Program-made: the position numbers and the translations under genes | From: a virus | DNA length: 32,542 nt | Direction: 5' to 3' (one strand) | IMG/VR virus record: IMGVR_UViG_3300045136_000380 | Location: 1-32,542 of that record | Shown here: one piece after another, positions 11,700-27,548 of the stretch | Layout: each line of letters begins with the position of its first letter | Numbering within the stretch: the first letter of the stretch is position 1 | Notes under the pieces: model-generated | Databases searched by the model: none | What the model was told of the DNA's origin: nothing | The model's input: the letters and a program-made list of their open reading frames with translations, nothing else

Positions 11700-11840
11700 T
11701 TTTCCTCCCTCGCCCGCTTCCCGCCCCCCTCCCGGGCCATGGGGCGCATACTAGCCACGCCAGCACTGACGTTAGCGTCAGCGCTCCACCGACTTCACGG
11801 TGGCGCCGACCTCCCAGCAAGGCCGGCCGCACGACTGGCC
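11700..11840 (-). promoter_or_regulatory. Intercistronic structured leader element, copy A
   Basis: On the minus strand the element begins just after the TGA of the upstream gene. A closing stem GGCCA/TGGCT encloses three hairpins: GCCGGCCT/AGGTCGGC, CCACCG/CGGTGG (11786-11803, loop TGAAGT on the minus strand) and CTGACG/CGTCAG. Then follow GTATGCGCCCC, a GC-rich core and GGGAAGCGGGC, ending at the GGGAGGAAA ribosome site of the gene at 11699. Copy B has the same plan with compensatory changes in two hairpins. Confidence 0.65.
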
Positions 11841-12803
11841 TCAACCCATAGAGTGGGGCCTAAGCTCGTTGAGCCACCAATATGGAAAATTGAACTTCTG
11901 TAATTCTTCAATTAAAACCTCATCCAACGTTGCGTGAAAATTTTTCACGCAACGTTTCAGCGTGTTGTACAAGCTTGCTGAGCTATACCTTTCGCTCAGA
12001 CAAGCCATTGTCTTTATTACATCTTTCGTTTCGGCCCGGCTGATTATCATCAGCTCCAGGGCCAATCCAATTTCCGTTTCGCAGATTTCGATCACCTGCT
12101 CATAGTTACCGCTGAGCAGGTTTTCCAATATTTGCTTTGCTTTCAAAGCGTGGTACCCGTTTGCGCGATCCAGAATTACCAAAATTTCCTCTGCTTGATC
12201 GCACAAAACGGCAGCCCTGAGCATTGTCCAAACCGAATAAAACGGTTTTGCGTTGGACAACACAACGGTCTCCAGCATCCGTGTTGCGGCTTCCGCAACA
12301 CTTTTGATTTCTTCGGTCTTGGACAACTTAAGATTGCTAAAAATCGAATCGCATATCATTTTTTCCAGAGTGTTATCCCAACTGTCGGCGGACAGTTGGG
12401 CAACCTTTTCGTGCACAGCGGCTATGCCGCGTACACCAAAATAAACGGAGGACTCCGCCAGAACCCCCAAAACCTGGTCGAAGCCCTCCAAATAGGCATT
12501 GAAAATATATTTTAACGTCGTTTCTGGGTCCTCAACCTCATACAGGACCCTGGCTCCCTGGGCACGCCAACCCAGGGTGCCTACCACTGTTCTGCCTTCA
12601 GGCAGCACCAAAAAGATGCTGCCCAGGTAAGACGATGCGACCTCCATCGTGGCCGCGAAGATTCCGTTGCCACGCTCGAGATCGCCATCTCCAGCCCTTA
12701 GGACATAGGACCCGTCTGCAGACGGGAACCACTCCGTGCCTTGTACCGGAGAAATTAACTTATCTTCCTTTTGAATCAAAGCCTTAAAACCAACATATTT
12801 CAT
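11841..12803 (-). CDS. Unrecognised 320-residue protein
   Basis: The first ~95 residues (MKYVGFKALIQKEDKLI to GTLGWRAQGARVLYEVEDPE) have the feel of a phage/plasmid domain with 'G-I-F/Y-A-A ... V-L-x-x-G ... G-W/Y-R-A-x-x-A-R' spacing; I have no firm family name (DUF7666-like is one option). Residues 100-320 are almost all helical (ESSVYFGVRGIAAVHEKVAQ; NYEQVIEICETEIGLALELM), like helical-repeat scaffolds. No membrane helices. The DNA is visibly more AT-rich than both flanks, which suggests separate acquisition. ATG 12803 has GGGAG seven bases upstream. A terminator (12852-12901) lies upstream, so it probably has its own promoter near 12810-12860. Confidence 0.65.
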   Translation of the reverse strand: MKYVGFKALIQKEDKLISPVQGTEWFPSADGSYVLRAGDGDLERGNGIFAATMEVASSYLGSIFLVLPEGRTVVGTLGWRAQGARVLYEVEDPETTLKYIFNAYLEGFDQVLGVLAESSVYFGVRGIAAVHEKVAQLSADSWDNTLEKMICDSIFSNLKLSKTEEIKSVAEAATRMLETVVLSNAKPFYSVWTMLRAAVLCDQAEEILVILDRANGYHALKAKQILENLLSGNYEQVIEICETEIGLALELMIISRAETKDVIKTMACLSERYSSASLYNTLKRCVKNFHATLDEVLIEELQKFNFPYWWLNELRPHSMG

Positions 12804-13080: not shown

Positions 13081-13208
13081 CTCCCCCGTGCCCGCTTCCC
13101 GCCCCCGCCCGGGCCTGGGGCGCGTAGGCTTGCCTCATCAGCGCCAGGGTTGCCACCACCTGGCGGACGGCGGGGTGGGTGGACGCCCACCCCCACCGTT
13201 TCGGCCTA
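13081..13208 (-). promoter_or_regulatory. Intercistronic structured leader element, copy C
   Basis: On the minus strand it starts with the TAG stop of the upstream gene: TAGGC (13208-13204) can pair with GCCTA (13129-13125). Inside are hairpins GGGGTGGGCG/CCCACCCC and CGCCAGG/CCTGGCG, then CGCGCCCC, the GC core and GGGAAGCGGGC up to the ribosome site of 13075. The last ~35 bases are identical to copy B, while the hairpins differ in sequence but keep the same plan. Confidence 0.6.
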
Positions 13209-13500: not shown

Positions 13501-13640
13501 TTTCCTCCTCTGCCCGCTTCCCGCCCCCGCCCGGGCCTGGGGCGCATACTAGCCACGCCGACGCCGGCAACAGCGGCGTCCCACCGACTTTACGGTGGCA
13601 CCGGCCCCCAGCGGGGGGGGGCCGGACGCACGACTGGCTA
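13501..13640 (-). promoter_or_regulatory. Intercistronic structured leader element, copy B
   Basis: The minus strand starts at the TAG stop of the upstream gene: TAGCCA (13640-13635) pairs with TGGCTA (13554-13549). Three hairpins lie inside: CCGGCCCCC/GGGGGCCGG, CCACCG/CGGTGG (13581-13598, loop TAAAGT) and GACGCCG/CGGCGTC. Then GTATGCGCCCC, GC core, GGGAAGCGGGC and AGGAGGAAAG before ATG 13499. Compared with copy A, hairpins 1 and 3 differ on both arms yet still pair. Confidence 0.7.
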
Positions 13641-13862
13641 CCCGGCTGAATGTCCCCTGACTGACCAGTGGACATCGAAATAAAACTCCTCCACGTCAGA
13701 CGGGTCGTACAACAACCCGTCTGAGCAGGCACATTTCGGGTGCCAAACCCTGATCCCCTGCTCCACAACCTCCCGTGGGAGGTTGTATTCTCGGAGAGCC
13801 GCCTCAACGGCGGTCTCCAGGTCGACCACCGGGTCTCCGCAATTGCGACATGACAGTTTCAT
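13638..13862 (-). CDS. Small protein with putative zinc site
   Basis: 74 residues: MKLSCRNCGDPVVDLETAVE, a helix through AALREYNLPREVVEQGIRVW and then HPKCACSDGLLYDPSDVEEF. The C-x-x-C pair near the start and the H-x-x-C-x-C in the middle suggest one bound zinc ion. No catalytic motif. It is the first gene after the consensus promoter at 13929-13957 and has GAGGAGG upstream of ATG 13862. Its stop codon TAG forms the first bases of leader element B. Family unknown; a small adaptor or regulator is possible. Confidence 0.7.
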   Translation of the reverse strand: MKLSCRNCGDPVVDLETAVEAALREYNLPREVVEQGIRVWHPKCACSDGLLYDPSDVEEFYFDVHWSVRGHSAG

Positions 13863-14064: not shown

Positions 14065-14382
14065 TTAACGGCACACTGGCGCGTCGGCCCGGTGGACGAC
14101 GTCCTCGGCCGTGCCGGCCGGCAGCAGGATGACCTCCTCCTCGCGCCGGGGCGCCAGTGCCAGGCGCTGGGCCTGGCAGGTGGCCCGGCATCGCCAGCAC
14201 GGCTCTATCTCCTGGCGGCGCCGCTCGCCGGCCAGCATGAGCACGCCAATGGCCACGCTGGCCCCAACACCGAGCAGGACGCCAACGGCCATGGCGATGG
14301 CGTCGCTGTTGAGCGCCCCGCCAATGCGCCAGATGGCGGCGGCGGCCATCATGAGCAATCCAGCCACGATAATGCGTATCAT
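14065..14382 (-). CDS. Small membrane protein coupled to the translocase
   Basis: 105 residues. Two predicted membrane helices: about 3-21 (IIVAGLLMMAAAAIWRIGG) and 29-51 (IAMAVGVLLGVGASVAIGVL). The C-terminal half is charged with CWRCRATC, a possible metal site (C-x-x-C-x-x-x-C). ATG 14382 overlaps the translocase stop codon as TAATG, so it is translated with that gene and may be its membrane partner or accessory. No known family recognised. A holin role is conceivable from size and topology, but the tight coupling with the translocase makes a partner more likely. Confidence 0.65.
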   Translation of the reverse strand: MIRIIVAGLLMMAAAAIWRIGGALNSDAIAMAVGVLLGVGASVAIGVLMLAGERRRQEIEPCWRCRATCQAQRLALAPRREEEVILLPAGTAEDVVHRADAPVCR

Positions 14383-16001
14383 TATTTGCTCTCTCCTCTC
14401 TCATTAAAAACCTCGCTCACATATCCACGGGCCACGTGGATGCCACGGGCCCGGCACCAGTCCCGAAAATCTGCCTGGCTGCCGCCAATATGCTCTATCC
14501 ACCATCGGATGAGCTCCCGTTTTGGCGCCTCACGACCCGGTTCGTTCGGCGGTGGGGGTGGGGGGCTGTAGGCATCGTTCGCCGTTCGTTCGGTACCGAA
14601 TTCGTTCGGCGAATCGCCATCTACCTCTGGAACAGCCGTTCGTTCGGCGCTCCCGAGCAGCCGAACGCCGGCGTTCGGCGCCGAACAGGCTGCCAGCAAA
14701 CGCGGTAGCTCAGGCCGCACGTGCCAGGAGCGGTACCGGCGTCCCCGGTGCAGGAACACGCCGCGGGCAGGCAAACGCGCAGCGTGGTACTCCTCCAGCC
14801 TGGCTCCCTGGCCGGGGCCGAGCTGGTAGATAGCGCGCCATTTCACGGCGGCGAGCACCTGCTGGCTCCAGTGCTCTGGATACTGGTCCACCAGCAGGAG
14901 CGATAGGCTCAATTTGCGGCCGCCCCGCAGGATAATATCCAGCATGTCGTCCACCTGGCCTGCGGCGCGGCCATGGGCCATGCGCACCTGCTGGATCAGG
15001 CCGCCGTACTCCTCGATGATGACCAGTACCCGGGTTGGTGCCTGGCCGTCGAGGGACGCCAGGTTGACGGCGCCACTCTCCATGAGCAGGCGGCGGCGCT
15101 GCTCATAGAACCGGTAGAGCTCTCGCACCTGGTCGGGGAAAACCCCGTAATCCGTCTCGTGCCATTCGGCCACCGGCGCAAAATCGCGCCAGTCCGCGCC
15201 GCCATCCGGATCCAGGATGATGACGTGCCAGCCATGCATGAGCGCCTGCAATGCAATGGCAAATGCCGCGCCCGTCGTTTTACCGGTGCCGGTGGCTCCA
15301 ACCACCGCGGCGTGGGCATGCAGGGCCGGATTGTAGGTGGCCAGCGCGCCACTATCCGGATCCTGGCCGACCAGCCAGGCCTGCTGCTCCGACTGTGCCA
15401 GCGCCTCCTCTAGCGACAGCAACGGCTGCGCAGATAATTGCCCCGGCGCCTCCTCGGCTACCGGCACGCGGCCAGGCCGGTGGTAGTATCCGGCCAGCAG
15501 CTTGGCCGTCGACGCGTTGGCGACCGGTGGCTGGCCACGGGCCAGCGCATCGGCGGCCAACGCATTGAGATGCAGCGTAGCCTGGGCCGCGCGCGCAAAC
15601 GATTCCTGCAAATGCCAACCTGCGGCTGGCGCGACCTGATAGATGTTGTCGTGGATGATGATGGCCAGGCCGATGTCGTGATTTGGGTTGTAGAGAAGGC
15701 GGGGGTTGGGGCGGCCACGCAGCCAGTTGAGCACGCGCCGCCACCACGGGAGCAAATGGTACTCCCGCAGCGGAAACACGCCGCGCACTGGCAGGCGCGT
15801 GCGCTGCAGATGGGTGCGCACGACGGCGATGCCGACACACAGGGCCAGCAGTGCCAGCACTATCATCGCGGCCGCAATGGCCGTCGCGATGATTTGTGCC
15901 GCAGCTGCCACAACAACAGCAATTTGCTGCCGGTTGTCGTAGTAGATGGCCATGGCAACTATCGTCGCGCAGCTGATGGCAAAAATGGCGACCTGGCGCA
16001 T
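14382..16001 (-). CDS. FtsK/HerA-like membrane-anchored DNA translocase
   Basis: 539 residues. Two N-terminal membrane segments (about 4-20 and 25-58), a ~150-residue linker domain, then a P-loop ATPase: Walker A VVGATGTGKTTGAAFA, IILDPDGGADWRDFAP, and Walker B VLVIIEEYGGLI. A proline-rich linker (PPPPPP) leads to a C-terminal winged-helix-like end (QADFRDWCRARGIHVARGYV). This plan matches FtsK/TcpA/HerA-type DNA pumps of plasmids and conjugative elements. ATG 16001 has GGAGGATCC upstream; the longer frame runs through hairpins and is rejected. It may move or segregate DNA in a plasmid-like state. Repeated TTCGTTCGG motifs lie inside its 3' coding part. Confidence 0.8.
   Translation of the reverse strand: MRQVAIFAISCATIVAMAIYYDNRQQIAVVVAAAAQIIATAIAAAMIVLALLALCVGIAVVRTHLQRTRLPVRGVFPLREYHLLPWWRRVLNWLRGRPNPRLLYNPNHDIGLAIIIHDNIYQVAPAAGWHLQESFARAAQATLHLNALAADALARGQPPVANASTAKLLAGYYHRPGRVPVAEEAPGQLSAQPLLSLEEALAQSEQQAWLVGQDPDSGALATYNPALHAHAAVVGATGTGKTTGAAFAIALQALMHGWHVIILDPDGGADWRDFAPVAEWHETDYGVFPDQVRELYRFYEQRRRLLMESGAVNLASLDGQAPTRVLVIIEEYGGLIQQVRMAHGRAAGQVDDMLDIILRGGRKLSLSLLLVDQYPEHWSQQVLAAVKWRAIYQLGPGQGARLEEYHAARLPARGVFLHRGRRYRSWHVRPELPRLLAACSAPNAGVRLLGSAERTAVPEVDGDSPNEFGTERTANDAYSPPPPPPNEPGREAPKRELIRWWIEHIGGSQADFRDWCRARGIHVARGYVSEVFNERGESK
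14541..14685. repeat. Clustered TTCGTTCGG motifs inside translocase gene
   Basis: Four direct copies of TTCGTTCGG start at 14541, 14585, 14601 and 14639, followed by GTTCGGCGCCGAAC (dyad, 14672-14685). They sit in the codons for the linker between ATPase and winged helix. Such clustering suggests a DNA-binding site array, but part of it may reflect a low-complexity linker. Confidence 0.5.
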
Positions 16002-16021
16002 GGATCCTCCGAAATAAAATG

Positions 16022-16144
16022 GCCCGCACCGCGGTGCGGGCACTTGTAATCCTGGCGACCAGATGCTATGATGTCGCCGATTGCCTCGCGGCCTGTCCCC
16101 GCGGTGCGGTCGGTGCGGCCTGGCTACCCACCAGCCAGGCCGCA
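16022..16144 (-). promoter_or_regulatory. Structured leader upstream of translocase
   Basis: The 150-base gap holds, on the minus strand, a perfect 12-bp hairpin TGCGGCCTGGCT/AGCCAGGCCGCA (16144-16114), a GGCGAC/GTCGCC hairpin and GCCCGCAC-CGCG-GTGCGGGC (16041-16022) followed by CATTTTATTT and at once by the GGAGGATCC ribosome site. The last looks like a terminator placed right before a gene, so an attenuator is possible. Confidence 0.55.
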
Positions 16145-16151
16145 CATTCGC

Positions 16152-16787
16152 TCAGATGTTCTGCTGGCGCATCCACGACAGCAAATTGTCGTAGGAGCGC
16201 CGCACCTCCTCGCACTGGGATACCCAAATGTCCAGCTCCATGCCGGAGTAGCCCATTTGTTCCCCCAGCGCCCGATACGTAGCCACGATTTCGTCGTGGC
16301 GCTCCATGGCGTCTCGGATGCGACGCCGGAGCTCAGTGTCAATGTCGTTCATGATTTCGCCTCCTGTTAGGCTTTTTCGTGCCTGTTCCAATTCGTCAGC
16401 AATCGCCAGGTAGGTGGACTGGTATTCTCTATCCGGCTCGTTGTTGGCCGCTTTGTCCAGCATCAGGGATGCTGCGCCCATGGCCACAACAGCCCGGCCT
16501 ACAGCCGCATACCGGGGAATATAGGTCCAATAGCTCATGGCCACCCCGGCGGCCTGCATGGCATCTATCACGTCGATGATGGACAACGCCCTCAGTGCAT
16601 GCCCCAACTCGTCAGCAGTCAACCGGTAATTAACCCGGCTTCCCCCCCTGTCCATCTCGTTGTTGGCCGCCCTGTCCAGCATCAGGGATGCTGCGCCCAT
16701 GGCCACAACGGCCCGGCCTACAGCCGCATACCGGTTGCCCATGGCGTCCCGTATACGACGCCGGAGCTCAGTGTCAATGTCGTTCAT
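16152..16787 (-). CDS. Helical protein with internal gene duplication
   Basis: 211 residues, family not recognised. The N-terminal MNDIDTELRRRIRDAM recurs at residue 146, and RYAAVGRAVVAMGAASLMLD occurs twice (about residues 19 and 92). The second start carries its own GGAGGCGAAATC ribosome site and ATG at 16352, which would give a 66-residue product ending in SYDNLLSWMRQQNI. The ORF thus looks like two tandem small genes fused in frame by duplication, with the internal start still usable. ATG 16787 overlaps the stop of the RecT-like gene (ATGA). Helical, no membrane segments; perhaps a helical-bundle DNA or protein binder (inference). Confidence 0.65.
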   Translation of the reverse strand: MNDIDTELRRRIRDAMGNRYAAVGRAVVAMGAASLMLDRAANNEMDRGGSRVNYRLTADELGHALRALSIIDVIDAMQAAGVAMSYWTYIPRYAAVGRAVVAMGAASLMLDKAANNEPDREYQSTYLAIADELEQARKSLTGGEIMNDIDTELRRRIRDAMERHDEIVATYRALGEQMGYSGMELDIWVSQCEEVRRSYDNLLSWMRQQNI

Positions 16788-16803
16788 GATTTCGCCTCCT
16801 GTT
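16306..16803. repeat. Two pairs of direct repeats (48 and 79 bp)
   Basis: 16321-16368 is repeated at 16756-16803 (48 bases, including ribosome site and start codon), and 16437-16515 is repeated at 16656-16734 (79 bases, three mismatches). The order of the two repeat types shows a nested or multi-step duplication rather than one simple tandem event. Confidence 0.85.
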
Positions 16804-17683
16804 TCTGGGCCAGCTTCTCCAGCTGGCGGCGATAGAATGCGTCGTAAAGGGCCGGCAGGTCCTCGTGCCGGATGCTCCCCTCACCATGCAATTCCCGGGC
16901 GATTTTGGCCCAGGAATTGCGGGCCTCAAACGCGTTGGCGCAGGCGCCAACCTCAACTGCCCAGCGCTGGGCCTCCGGTGGCGATTTCCAGTCGGGCCGC
17001 TGGTTGCCCTGGCCACCGGCCGGCGCCGGGTCGGCGAACGATAGCGGCTCAACGTCGTCTAGGGACTCCGGCAGGCGGCCTTCGTCGGCCCGGTCGATGT
17101 CGGCCTCCGTGGACGGCGGCACCTCAACCACGTCGCCGTCCATTACGAAATCGTCAGGAGGAAGCTCGTTGGAGCCGCCCCCGGACAGCTCCTCCCGGAC
17201 GTAGACGACGTTGCCCGCGAACACGTCCGGGCAAAACCAGCGCACGCCGTTGCTGAGCGCCCGGGCAAACAGCATATTGCGGGGAAATTTGCGCCAGTTG
17301 TCCCGGCCTGCCAGGCCGGCGGCCTTGGCGTCCTCAACGGAAAATCTGGAGACGCCCAGGCTGACCCCGTCCTGGAAAAACTCGATGGCGGCCTCAGCAT
17401 CGTCGAGCCGGCGCACCCGGTAGTCGTAGCGCGGGTGGGCCTTAACGGCGGCCGCCATCAAATTGGCCGACAGGACGGGCTGGCCCTGGATGATGTGGAT
17501 GCCGCTGACGCTGGCCCAGGGGCCGAAACCCAGCTCGCGGCCGGCCAGGATTTTGGTGGCCACCTGGGCCAATGCCTGCTGGGGGTTGCGGCTAGCCTCG
17601 AAAAATCCCGAGGCCAGCATCATTCTGGCCGTGCGCTGGATTGTCTCCAGCGCTTCACTGTCAACAGGTGCCGGCAGATTCAT
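16784..17683 (-). CDS. RecT-like single-strand annealing protein (putative)
   Basis: 299 residues. Residues 35-175 carry a pattern seen in phage RecT-like proteins: KILAGRELGFGPWASVSGIH, IIQGQPVLSANLMAAAVK, FFQDGVSLGVSRFSVEDAKA, then DNWRKFPRNMLFARALSNGV and CPDVFAG. RecT proteins anneal complementary strands in phage recombination and repair. After it comes an acidic Pro-rich linker and a C-terminal helical part (WKSPPEAQRWAVEVGACANA). No partner exonuclease (RecE/YqaJ) is adjacent; the VRR-NUC protein lies elsewhere. It overlaps both neighbours by 4 bases (ATGA), so the operon is tightly coupled. The family call is by motif memory, not by a search. Confidence 0.55.
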   Translation of the reverse strand: MNLPAPVDSEALETIQRTARMMLASGFFEASRNPQQALAQVATKILAGRELGFGPWASVSGIHIIQGQPVLSANLMAAAVKAHPRYDYRVRRLDDAEAAIEFFQDGVSLGVSRFSVEDAKAAGLAGRDNWRKFPRNMLFARALSNGVRWFCPDVFAGNVVYVREELSGGGSNELPPDDFVMDGDVVEVPPSTEADIDRADEGRLPESLDDVEPLSFADPAPAGGQGNQRPDWKSPPEAQRWAVEVGACANAFEARNSWAKIARELHGEGSIRHEDLPALYDAFYRRQLEKLAQKQEAKS

Positions 17684-17976
17684 TTTCCGCCTTCCTCCTC
17701 CAGTATTCTCACCTGATATCTCGTCAATCTGGCCCCGTACGTATCCATTTCCTCCGGGGTCAGATCCTGCCCCCGCCTATCCGGCGGGAGCCCCGGCATA
17801 TCGATGGCCACCACCTCGGCAGTCAGGGCGGCGAGATGCAACGGCAAAACACCGTATACAACTCGGCCTCGCACGTTGTCAGAGGTGGCGTGCGCGACCA
17901 CCTCACCGACGATTCCGTGGCGCTCCAGCCATGCAATCAAGCCGGCGTGTCGGGTAACAATGAGAGGCGTATTCAT
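17680..17976 (-). CDS. csx16: Csx16-family protein (possible type III anti-CRISPR ring nuclease)
   Basis: 98 residues, the full family length. Matches the VVA1548/Csx16 family from type III CRISPR loci: IVTRHAGLIAWLERHGI at the start, VVAHATSDNVRG, the core YGVLPLHLAALTAEVVAIDM, then PPDRRGQDLTPEEMDTYGAR and RYQVRI. The R-H near residue 9-10, L-P-x-H-L-A-A and R-G-x-x-L-T-x-x-E-M motifs are the family hallmarks. Csx16 proteins associate with type III CRISPR and, to my knowledge, have been reported to act on cyclic oligoadenylate. On a phage this could switch off host type III signalling, like AcrIII-1. ATG 17976 follows AAGGAGAAAAGGAC; it overlaps the RecT-like start. No cas genes are nearby. 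Confidence 0.75.
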   Translation of the reverse strand: MNTPLIVTRHAGLIAWLERHGIVGEVVAHATSDNVRGRVVYGVLPLHLAALTAEVVAIDMPGLPPDRRGQDLTPEEMDTYGARLTRYQVRILEEEGGK

Positions 17977-17992: not shown

Positions 17993-18133
17993 TCATGCAA
18001 TGGCCTGCACCAGGCCGGCCACCACGGTGCCGGCCGCAAACAAAAACAGCAGCATGACCAGGAAACAGCCGTCCCTGTCCTGCTGCTGCTGTGGCCGTTC
18101 ATTATCGCCGTTTCCGTTCCAGTTCGTGCTCAT
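17993..18133 (-). CDS. 46-residue single-helix membrane protein
   Basis: MSTNWNGNGDNERPQQQQDR is a polar, glutamine-rich head; residues about 24-43 (FLVMLLFLFAAGTVVAGLVQ) are one clear membrane helix, ending AIA. GGAGATGGAG precedes ATG 18133. It begins inside the end of the next upstream gene, in another frame, and sits 16 bases before the Csx16-like gene. Too short for automatic ORF lists but well formed. It could be a small holin-like or regulatory membrane peptide; nothing decides this. Confidence 0.6.
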   Translation of the reverse strand: MSTNWNGNGDNERPQQQQDRDGCFLVMLLFLFAAGTVVAGLVQAIA

Positions 18134-18293
18134 CTCCATCTCCTCTCTCAACATCCGATTCCGCATCTGCACGTAACGCCCGCCACCAGCCGCGGCGCTG
18201 GTGGATGTTCTCGCAGGCATCCACCGGTTCGCCGCGCTGGTACCGTTCCATGCCGACGAGGTACTGGCGGAACGATTCTGGTATTTCTGGCAT
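18102..18293 (-). CDS. Small charged protein, first gene of the leftward operon
   Basis: 63 residues: MPEIPESFRQYLVGMERYQR, a GEPVDACENIHQRRGWWRAL segment, and a highly charged tail (DADSESDVERGDGDEHELERK-like). Family not recognised. It is the first ORF after the leftward promoter at 18342-18370. GGGAG lies seven bases before ATG 18293. The position next to the switch, opposite the XRE gene, is where Cro-like or early regulators often lie, but this sequence shows no helix-turn-helix. Confidence 0.6.
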   Translation of the reverse strand: MPEIPESFRQYLVGMERYQRGEPVDACENIHQRRGWWRALRADAESDVERGDGDEHELERKRR

Positions 18294-18341: not shown

Positions 18342-18370
18342 AGCATAAAACACATAGTGCTAATTGTCAA
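18342..18370 (-). promoter_or_regulatory. Leftward promoter of the divergent switch
   Basis: Minus strand TTGACA (18370-18365), 17-base spacer, TATGCT (18347-18342). The spacer reads ATTAGCACTATGTGTTT. The AGCACTA heptamer is at spacer positions 4-10, exactly as in the opposing promoter. Confidence 0.8.
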
Positions 18371-18409: not shown

Positions 18410-18438
18410 TTGACAGCCAGCACTAATGGTGCTAGAAT
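18410..18438 (+). promoter_or_regulatory. Rightward promoter of the divergent switch
   Basis: TTGACA (18410-18415), 17-base spacer, TAGAAT (18433-18438). The spacer contains the dyad AGCAC-TAATG-GTGCT. Its AGCACTA is at spacer positions 4-10, as in the leftward promoter. It drives the XRE gene and probably the replication genes. Confidence 0.85.
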
Positions 18439-18482
18439 GGCAGTCGACGAAAACCAACGAGGCGATTTTTCAGGAGAAAAAA

Positions 18483-18695
18483 ATGAACCAGACCTTCGGC
18501 CATAACGTGCGACGACTCCGGCTCCAGCGCGGCCTGTCTCAGGTCGAGCTGGCCAAACAGGTCGGCGTCTGGCAAACCTATATTTCCCGAATCGAGCGCG
18601 GGGACACGCCATCTATTGAGGTGGCACAGCGACTGGCCCGGGCGCTCGGAGTTACCATTGACGACCTGCTCGCCGAGCAGGTCGTTTTAGATTAG
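18483..18695 (+). CDS. XRE-family HTH repressor
   Basis: 70 residues, essentially one Cro/CI-type helix-turn-helix: FGHNVRRLRLQRGLSQVELA, the recognition helix QTYISRIERGDTPSIEVAQR and LARALGVTIDDLLAEQV. It binds operator DNA as a dimer in known relatives. ATG 18483 has AGGAG seven bases upstream. The gene follows the rightward promoter with the AGCACTAATGGTGCT dyad, so autoregulation is likely. There is no C-terminal peptidase domain, so a LexA/RecA-type self-cleavage is excluded; induction must work otherwise. As the first gene of the replication operon it may also be a Cro-like switch protein. Confidence 0.88.
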   Translation: MNQTFGHNVRRLRLQRGLSQVELAKQVGVWQTYISRIERGDTPSIEVAQRLARALGVTIDDLLAEQVVLD

Positions 18696-23927: not shown

Positions 23928-23998
23928 CGCTCAGGGTCGGGCAATAGCGGTTGTCGGGCGCTTTTATATCCACAACAATTGATGATAAAATCGTCAGT

Positions 23999-24820
23999 AT
24001 GGCTGCGCATGTGGATTTGTCGTCGATAGCCCCCTGGCTCATAGCCATCATTGCCATGGTCGGCGCGCTGTGGCTGTACATCAACGGCCACAGCACGCAG
24101 GCCAACATCTACATCGAGGTCGGAGAGTTGAGACGCCAGGTAGAAAATCAGCAGCGCATCATAGAGGAGCAGCGCCAACGCATTGCACTCCTGGAGCAGC
24201 AGCTGGATGAGCTGCGGCGGTTGTATCAGGAATCGTTGCAGCGAGAGAATGCAGCCACCGCGCAGCTCCTGGATATGCAACGCCAGTTGCAGGCCATGCG
24301 CCAAAATGGCCACGGCGGCAAAAACTGGCTCAATGTGCTGGCCATCTGTCCAGATAGCGATTTGGATATGGTTTCGGTACGGAACGCGCTCTACGATGCC
24401 GGCATCCCCTACCGGGCACTGGTCGGCACGGTGCGGAAGGACGACATCGTCCGGGCCCTGGAGGAGGGCTCCTACACCGTTCTGGAGGTGGACGCCCACG
24501 GCCGGAGCGACGGCATCGAGCTCAGCGACGGCCTGGCCAGGCCCGGCTGGTGGGCCAGCGTAATCGGCCAATCCGGCAAACGTATCCGTCTGGCCGTGTT
24601 CATGGCATGCGACAGCCTGGACGTGGCGCGAGCGGTGAAACGGGCTGGGGTGCGCTGGGTGGTGGCCGTGCGTGGCCAAATCCAGGACGAGGATGCCGTC
24701 AGGTTTCTGGTCCATTTCTACGAGGCCCTGGCCAATGGTTATGCTGTCCGGGACGCCATCAGGAGGGGCGAGTCGTTAATCGGGCTGGATGCAGCGGATG
24801 CCGTGACGCTGCTGGAATGA
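23999..24820 (+). CDS. Membrane-anchored coiled-coil CHAT-like protease
   Basis: 273 residues from ATG 23999. One membrane helix (about 12-28, PWLIAIIAMVGALWLY), a ~60-residue coiled coil (43-103), then a C-terminal caspase-like/CHAT domain: YTVLEVDAHGRSDGIELSDG (His167-Gly168), RLAVFMACDSLDVARAVKRA (Cys204), WVVAVRGQIQDEDAVRFLVHF and YEALANGYAVRDAIRRGE. The His/Cys dyad and the 'D-x-x-A-x-x-F-x-x-x-F-Y-x-x-L' helix are CHAT hallmarks. CHAT proteases act in bacterial immunity and cell death. A phage copy is unusual. Role unknown; it could cleave host immune factors or act in lysis. GTG/TTG starts upstream lack a site. Confidence 0.75.
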   Translation: MAAHVDLSSIAPWLIAIIAMVGALWLYINGHSTQANIYIEVGELRRQVENQQRIIEEQRQRIALLEQQLDELRRLYQESLQRENAATAQLLDMQRQLQAMRQNGHGGKNWLNVLAICPDSDLDMVSVRNALYDAGIPYRALVGTVRKDDIVRALEEGSYTVLEVDAHGRSDGIELSDGLARPGWWASVIGQSGKRIRLAVFMACDSLDVARAVKRAGVRWVVAVRGQIQDEDAVRFLVHFYEALANGYAVRDAIRRGESLIGLDAADAVTLLE

Positions 24821-25877: not shown

Positions 25878-27548
25878 ATGCGAGAGTCCATAACTCGCTA
25901 CATTGATGATGTGCTCAATGGTCGGCGCACCTGTGGCCGGTGGGAACAGGCCATGGTCCGGCGCCATATTGACGACCTGGAACACGGCGCGGACCGCGGC
26001 CTGCGTTTTGACGAGCGCCTGGCTGCCAGGGCCTGCGCATTTTTCCCCCGGTTCCTCCGTCACAGCAAGGGGGAGTGGGCCGGGTACCCGCTGCATTTGG
26101 AGCCGTGGCAACAGTTCATTATCTGGAGCCTGTTCGGCTGGCTCCGGGATGATGGAGCGCGCCGGTTTCGCACCGCCTACATGGAGGTGGCGCGCAAGAA
26201 TGGGAAAACGACCCTGGCCGCAGGCATTGGGCTGTACCTCCTGGATGCGGACGGCGAGCCAGGGGCGGAGGTGTATACGGCGGCCACAAAACGGGACCAG
26301 GCGCGCATCGCCCATGGCGAGGCGACTCGCATGGTAAAAGCCAGCCCACTCCTGCGCAGGCGCATCCGGGTATACCGCGACAACCTCCACGTGGTGGAGA
26401 CGGCCAGCAAATTTGAGCCCCTGGGCCGGGATGCGGACAGCATGGACGGCCTCAACGTCCATGGGGCCATTGTGGACGAAATCCACGCGCACCGGACCAG
26501 GGACGTGTGGGACGTGCTGGACACAGCCACCGGCAGCCGGCGCCAGCCGCTCATTGTCGGCATCACGACGGCCGGATTTGACCGGCAGTCCCTCTGCTGG
26601 GAGCTGCATGAGTACACCGAGAAGGTTTTGGATGGCGCGCTTCAGGACGATAGCTGGTTCGGCGCCATCTATGCCATTGATGACGCGGACAATGACCCAT
26701 TTGACGAATCCATCTGGCCGAAGGCCAACCCAAACCTGGGCGTGTCGGTCAAACTGGACGACATGCGTAGATTGGCCATGAAGGCTAGGGAAATGCCGTC
26801 GGCCCTCAACTCGTTCCTGCGTTTGCGGCTCAACCGCTGGACCCAGGCAGAGAGCAGCTGGATCAACATGGATGTGTGGAGGGAAAATGCTGCTCCTGTG
26901 GACGCCGACGCGCTGAAGGGCCGCACATGCTACGGCGGCCTGGATTTGTCCAGCACCACCGACATCACCGCTTTTGTATTGGTTTTCCCGCCTACTGGGG
27001 CGGGTGACCGATACCATGTGCTATGCCGATTTTGGATCCCGGAGGACTCCATGCGGGAGCGCAGCCTCCGGGACCGGGTACCGTACGATGCCTGGGTGCG
27101 GGACGGCTACATCACGGCTACGCCGGGCAATGTCATCGACTACGATTATGTGTTGGCCCAGATTGACGAGGACGCACAGCGCTACGACATCGCGGAAATC
27201 GCGTTCGACCGCTGGGGGGCCACCCGGATCGTGCAGGACCTGGAGGATGCGGGCATGGCCGTGGTGCAGTTCGGCCAGGGGTTTAGCAGCATGAGTTCGC
27301 CAACAAAAGAGCTGGAGCGCCTGCTTTTGGCAAGAAAATTAGCACATGGTGGCAATCCTGTGCTATCCTGGATGGCGGGCAACGTGGTGGTGCGCGAGGA
27401 CCCGGCGGGCAACATTAAGCCGGACAAGGGCCGGTCCAGCGAGAAAATCGACGGCATTGTGGCCCTAATCATGGCCCTGGACCGGGCCCTGCGACACACG
27501 AAGGCGGCCGGGTCTGTCTACGAGGAACGTGGTTTGGTAATCCTATGA
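25878..27548 (+). CDS. terL: Terminase large subunit
   Basis: 556 residues. Packaging motor ATPase: Walker A-like MEVARKNGKTTLAAGIG (about 102-118), Walker B HGAIVDEIHAHR (195-206) with the coupling TTAGFDR segment; nuclease domain from GGLDLSSTTDITAFVLV with its Asp cluster, and a C-terminal FDRWGATRIVQDLEDAG, GFSSMSSPTKELERLL, KIDGIVALIMALDRAL, all typical of the HK97/Terminase_1 group. It moves DNA into the prohead and cuts it. ATG 25878 follows a weak GGAAAT; the alternative ATG 25839 is in another frame and ends after 22 codons. Confidence 0.95.
   Translation: MRESITRYIDDVLNGRRTCGRWEQAMVRRHIDDLEHGADRGLRFDERLAARACAFFPRFLRHSKGEWAGYPLHLEPWQQFIIWSLFGWLRDDGARRFRTAYMEVARKNGKTTLAAGIGLYLLDADGEPGAEVYTAATKRDQARIAHGEATRMVKASPLLRRRIRVYRDNLHVVETASKFEPLGRDADSMDGLNVHGAIVDEIHAHRTRDVWDVLDTATGSRRQPLIVGITTAGFDRQSLCWELHEYTEKVLDGALQDDSWFGAIYAIDDADNDPFDESIWPKANPNLGVSVKLDDMRRLAMKAREMPSALNSFLRLRLNRWTQAESSWINMDVWRENAAPVDADALKGRTCYGGLDLSSTTDITAFVLVFPPTGAGDRYHVLCRFWIPEDSMRERSLRDRVPYDAWVRDGYITATPGNVIDYDYVLAQIDEDAQRYDIAEIAFDRWGATRIVQDLEDAGMAVVQFGQGFSSMSSPTKELERLLLARKLAHGGNPVLSWMAGNVVVREDPAGNIKPDKGRSSEKIDGIVALIMALDRALRHTKAAGSVYEERGLVIL

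Follow-up and report, generated by a model that had tools for sequence, protein, structure and literature searches.

A Csx16-family protein encoded in an early-type operon of a tailed phage, a probable ring nuclease directed against type III CRISPR

A small gene, csx16 (17680..17976, minus strand), of a tailed phage encodes a Csx16-family protein that is probably a functional cA4 ring nuclease used against type III CRISPR, as judged from family membership, alignment and a structural model. To our knowledge, the list of ring-nuclease anti-CRISPRs beyond AcrIII-1 is short. In the proposed course of infection, csx16 would be made early from a leftward operon together with a RecT-like recombinase, while host Cas10 senses phage RNA and makes cA4. 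Csx16 would cut cA4 and hold its level under the activation threshold, and effectors of the Csx1, Can and Cam types would stay off once the signal is removed. Both the early timing and the benefit to the phage are inferred. The preliminary description of this DNA had proposed an anti-type III CRISPR factor with a fold unrelated to AcrIII-1; Csx16 identity, location on a phage, placement in an operon and the absence of type III genes all favor the proposal, whereas the fold claim and the novelty of the idea do not hold, as set out below.

The csx16 reading frame extends on the minus strand from an ATG at 17976 to 17680 and consists of 98 codons and a stop. The complete product reads MNTPLIVTRHAGLIAWLERHGIVGEVVAHATSDNVRGRVVYGVLPLHLAALTAEVVAIDMPGLPPDRRGQDLTPEEMDTYGARLTRYQVRILEEEGGK, organized as MNTPLIVTRHAGLIAWLERHG...LPLHLAAL...RRGQDLTPEEMDTYGARL. 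Upstream of the ATG lies GAGAAAGGAGAAAAGGAC, with the strong Shine-Dalgarno sequence GAAAGGAG. An in-frame ATG further upstream, at 18102, would give a 140-aa frame; it is less likely to be the start, since a gene beginning there would run into the 46-aa gene before it and gain residues outside the family match. PF09652 (Cas_VVA1548), the only Pfam family matched, covers residues 6-89 with 74.3 bits (E=9.1e-21; gathering score 25), and the PADLOC Csx16 models match at 2.9e-19, confirming the family, motifs and coordinates first described, to which the minus strand is now added. The TIGR02620 search suggested at that stage gives a match (E=5.4e-8) whose 33 bits fall short of the curated cut-off of 46.35, TIGR02620 being a hypothetical equivalog model. 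By these sequence matches, the protein is a member of the broad Csx16 family, divergent from the CRISPR-linked core. A PHROGs search gave no convincing family for the product. The residues R9, H10, G42, P45, R68, G69 and L72, invariant in type III-linked copies, are all intact, and the RH pair near the N terminus, H29, G-x-LP and RG-x-[DE]-L are present; H29 is replaced in two viral relatives. In a sequence search of the PDB, the top matches were ankyrin look-alikes to ‘PLHLAA’ and were dismissed as chance.

The AlphaFold2 model of the protein, built from a six-sequence alignment (pLDDT 93.4, pTM 0.81), shows five main strands with alternating helices, the five-stranded alpha/beta fold expected for Csx16. 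Foldseek returned no significant match to this model in the PDB or in a viral-structure library. The best of the non-significant PDB matches are structures of Cad1, a CARF protein, with cA4 in place (E=0.02); 2J6B is matched weakly (E=2.2, TM 0.44/0.40, rmsd 3.4). This outcome, weak by itself, agrees with the published description of Csx16 (PMC12409355), in which the fold is called CARF-like, a derived form of the Rossmann fold, and DALI matches it to 2J6B, a viral Crn2 homologue; in the literature Csx16 is modelled as a dimer. The ‘unrelated fold’ initially ascribed to the protein is therefore too strong a statement.

Purified Csx16 degrades cA4, and neither cA3 nor cA6 (Hoikkala et al. 2025, PMC12409355). 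This biochemistry, combined with the family identity, makes a cA4-cleaving role likely, cleavage by the phage protein itself being extrapolated by analogy with the published enzyme. According to the same study, 68 type III loci contain Csx16; it also reports two carriers among 28,114 phage genomes, within its section on phage ring nucleases, and the idea of a phage Csx16 is thus not new. The two genomes are probably those of Methanobacterium viruses Drs3 and PhiF3. Their Csx16 proteins are also virus-borne, without annotated Cas10; they lie outside annotated cas loci and are annotated ‘putative CRISPR-associated protein’. They differ from the phage protein studied here in being about 35% identical to it, of the long form, encoded by archaeal viruses and placed among other neighbours. 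The proteins described below give the suggestion that phages may use cellular ring nucleases specific candidates for assay. AcrIII-1 / Crn2 (DUF1874) shares with the phage protein a small size and the proposed destruction of cA4 during infection, and the weak 2J6B match may reflect a distant CARF-like resemblance to its AFV3-109-like fold, but it forms a separate family without a sequence match to the phage protein. Crn4b (PMC12830947) is likewise a cellular ring nuclease family found on phages and plasmids and proposed to act as an anti-CRISPR; it is unrelated to Csx16 in fold and sequence, and also cleaves cA3.

The window, meaning the whole stretch of 32,542 bases analysed, is a virus record without end repeats and probably nearly complete. 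Its genes for head closure, tail terminator, major tail protein, tape measure, small and large terminase subunits, portal, head protease and capsid identify a tailed phage. The terminase large subunit (TerL; 25878..27548, plus strand; phrog_9, 1.9e-195) was used to find relatives. Just upstream of the terminase genes, a gene on the plus strand (23951-24820) encodes a protein with a CHAT protease domain (PF12770, 27.7 bits, cut-off 24) at its C-terminal, preceded by an N-terminal hydrophobic segment and a spanin-like coiled coil. No Cas10 or RAMP gene was found over the whole 32.5-kb record, so the earlier statement that cas genes are absent is borne out for these two. The virus encoding csx16 is accordingly without a type III system of its own. 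The protein is like the Csx16 of type III loci (PF09652, TIGR02620, VVA1548) in family, size, conserved residues and five-stranded alpha/beta fold, but its gene is phage-borne, with no type III genes on the record, and lies outside any type III CRISPR locus, the typical context of the family.

In a leftward early-type operon, csx16 occupies the third position. A 63-aa gene (18102..18293, minus strand; no informative family match) comes first, followed by a gene for a small 46-aa protein with a single transmembrane segment assigned by hydropathy only (17993..18133, minus strand), directly upstream of csx16. Downstream lie the gene for a RecT-like ssDNA-annealing protein (16784..17683, minus strand), a 211-aa gene and a HerA/FtsK-like ATPase gene (14382..16145, minus strand; PF01935, 9e-6). 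The csx16 stop and the start of the RecT-like gene share 4 nt (ATGA). The placement in an early-type operon beside a RecT-like gene, as originally proposed, stands: the RecT-like product matches phrog_561 (E=1.7e-16), and the gene matches annotated phage ssDNA-annealing proteins in tblastn. Of the ‘small membrane proteins’ reported in the same proposal, one remains, the 46-aa protein with its single hydrophobic segment; the 63-aa product is non-hydrophobic. Within the 211-aa gene (16152-16787, minus strand), whose product has no informative family match, an internal direct duplication is seen, with DNA copies 93-95% identical at 16304-16368/16739-16803 and 16429-16515/16648-16734.

Upstream of the operon, a sigma-70-like promoter (TTGACA-17-TATGCT; 18342..18370, minus strand; consensus match) faces leftward. 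A divergent promoter-like site (TTGACA-17-TAGAAT, with TG before the second hexamer; 18410..18438, plus strand) faces the rightward genes, giving two sigma-70-like sites in the region against 0.6 expected. Rightward of this divergent region (18.34-18.44 kb) are a Cro/CI-type HTH regulator (18426..18695, plus strand; PF01381, 2e-19; probable start at an internal ATG near 18483), a gene with a weak MazG-like match, a VapE-like helicase and a primase. The operon layout and the promoter match would fit early expression of csx16, and the arrangement resembles, by analogy, the leftward recombination operon of lambdoid phages. Counter-defence genes are common in such operons.

Csx16 was found in 12 further IMG/VR virus records by scans with degenerate patterns for RG-x-[DE]-L-[ST], confirmed by profile search; the count is a minimum, since the scans relied on a single motif. 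Scans for exact peptides taken from the window protein or the Drs3 Csx16 found no relatives. One viral match (G059), a 27-residue fragment with a stop, was dropped. No Cas10 was found in the 12 records, and structural or packaging genes are present in all seven that were scanned for them. Csx16 is thus a recurring viral cargo, present in thirteen IMG/VR virus records or more. In one of the 12, a 55.9-kb virus record (G058; L226: 16342-18903, minus strand), genes for a RAMP protein, a probable Cas5-like protein and a PAPS reductase are located at least about 48 kb away from csx16; as a set, they look like a type IV-B CRISPR module.

The presence of an excisionase-like HTH gene alongside the CI/Cro-like regulator suggests that the window phage may be temperate. 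In a lysogen, csx16 could then damp self-toxic type III activation in the service of the host, in the manner of cellular Csx16, and cellular ring nucleases may indeed prevent aberrant activation (PMC12409355). Such a role is very improbable here: a recT operon behind an early-type promoter fits the lytic phase, and unrelated tailed phages carry Csx16, one of them with a contractile tail sheath.

A relative of the window phage (G1116; 69% identity in TerL, 67% in MCP and 47% in portal) carries a csx16 that is 63% identical, located at a different place, on the other strand relative to the terminase and among different neighbours. This placement suggests repeated gain or retention of the gene. 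In 48 other TerL relatives searched, no Csx16 was found, and csx16 is therefore dispensable. This dispensability among relatives, along with the score under the TIGR02620 cut-off, counts against an anti-type III role. The absence from most relatives would also suit an unselected passenger picked up by chance from a type III locus, the least likely of the alternatives and a scarcely credible one. The ORF is intact, with a ribosome-binding site and conserved residues; its composition is like that of the genome (GC 0.599 versus 0.595 for the rest); the related phage has kept its copy elsewhere; and csx16 recurs in many unrelated phages.

In cellular genomes of Pseudomonadota, by contrast, Csx16 scores above the cut-off in 11 of 398. 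All 11 also have Cas10 or RAMP matches, which in eight genomes share a contig with Csx16 and lie no more than about 11 kb away. These 11 copies, two from Allochromatium beside csm6 and cas1, and those of Aeromonas and Photobacterium in type III loci make up a set of 15 type III- or CRISPR-linked copies, a phylogenetically narrow sample in that all are from Pseudomonadota. The window protein is 31-42% identical to the CRISPR-linked copies sampled and lacks four residues after LPxHLAA that all 15 linked copies have. The short form comprises nine viral and five plasmid proteins, being mobile in 14 of 14 cases in the sample and represented by none of the 15 type III-linked copies. Without type III linkage the count is 14 short to 6 long, and with linkage 0 to 15 (Fisher 1.8e-5, kinship ignored).

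In a first tree of Csx16, a mobile-element clade of seven sequences was seen at 99/97. After the addition of four sequences, one of them a very fast-evolving plasmid sequence, support for this clade was gone, leaving a split between mobile and CRISPR-linked sequences at 75/92. The claim of a mobile form therefore rests on the deletion and not on a clade, although the viral sequences appear largely separate from the CRISPR-linked ones. Whether the short form constitutes a separate phage and plasmid lineage, a dedicated anti-type III CRISPR enzyme with its own kinetics or ligand spread across unrelated phages, is doubtful on this evidence, if conceivable. Were it so, the lineage would merit an AcrIII name of its own, and a short form that proved faster or different would represent a housekeeping off-switch turned into counter-defence.

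The deletion might also change the substrate or yield a binder instead of a cutter. A sponge that binds cA4, or another cyclic nucleotide, without fast cutting would accord with the loss, after LPLHLAA, of the four residues seen in every CRISPR-linked copy sampled, and phages do encode proteins of this kind (cited in PMC12409355). The retention of R-H and R-G, as in the family with shown cleavage, makes this unlikely.

Another alternative is a shift of the family's target in mobile elements to a different signal, for instance a CBASS cyclic oligonucleotide. The confinement of the short form to mobile elements in the sample is in keeping with such a shift, and so is the condition of the presumed host phylum, which is itself without Csx16. 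The nearest cellular TerL, at 66%, comes from an Anaerolineae MAG, and a host in Chloroflexota is a weak guess from TerL only. Cas10-palm matches at E<=1e-3 occur in 89 of 150 genomes of that class (79 above the cut-off), some of them probably other cyclases, since E. coli also matches. Csx16 was found in none of 298 Anaerolineae genomes and not above the cut-off among 400 of the phylum; if the host is one of the Anaerolineae, the phage brings in a ring nuclease foreign to it. A changed signal is nevertheless quite improbable, as the Csx16 tested is cA4-specific and nothing here points to another substrate. Cleavage of cA4 against type III CRISPR is retained as the probable function of the window protein.

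Plasmid-borne Csx16 is found in Deinococcus proteolyticus, Allomeiothermus silvanus, Paenibacillus polymyxa and an uncultured archaeon, without annotated type III genes in the stretch shown. Allomeiothermus silvanus has two plasmid proteins with tandem Csx16 domains (L006, 5998-8013, and L235, 7989-8774 of pMESIL02), one fused to a large C-terminal region and the second (L235) encoded beside conjugation genes. On Paenibacillus polymyxa pSC2 (L232, 5722-6270), a 183-aa protein combines an uncharacterised N-terminal part with a C-terminal Csx16 domain. Its gene lies near plasmid-borne rpsL, rpsG and fusA, in a plasmid stretch without cas genes.

Separately from csx16, the window carries a structured RNA element on the minus strand at 11752-11842 and 13550-13641. 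Elements of the same type occur on the plus strand of IMG/VR 3300002460_000067 (L255) at 1436-1511, 1774-1855 and 2111-2192, one of these three copies being found by the covariance model alone (55 bits, E=5e-11). The element consists of a closing stem, GCCAGUCGUGC...GGCGUGGC, and three hairpins, one of them with an almost invariant CCGUNAAGUCGG; several pairs show two-sided changes. It is positioned before the start codons of small phage genes, has no match in Rfam, and is possibly a new self-cleaving or 5'-UTR element. A type II hammerhead ribozyme is located nearby at 13123-13206 (minus strand; RF02276, 40 bits, gathering score 37). Its downstream module of a hairpin and a Shine-Dalgarno sequence recurs behind the RNA element at 11.7 and 13.5 kb, and partly at 11.13 kb, indicating that the hammerhead and the RNA element fill equivalent 5'-UTR slots.
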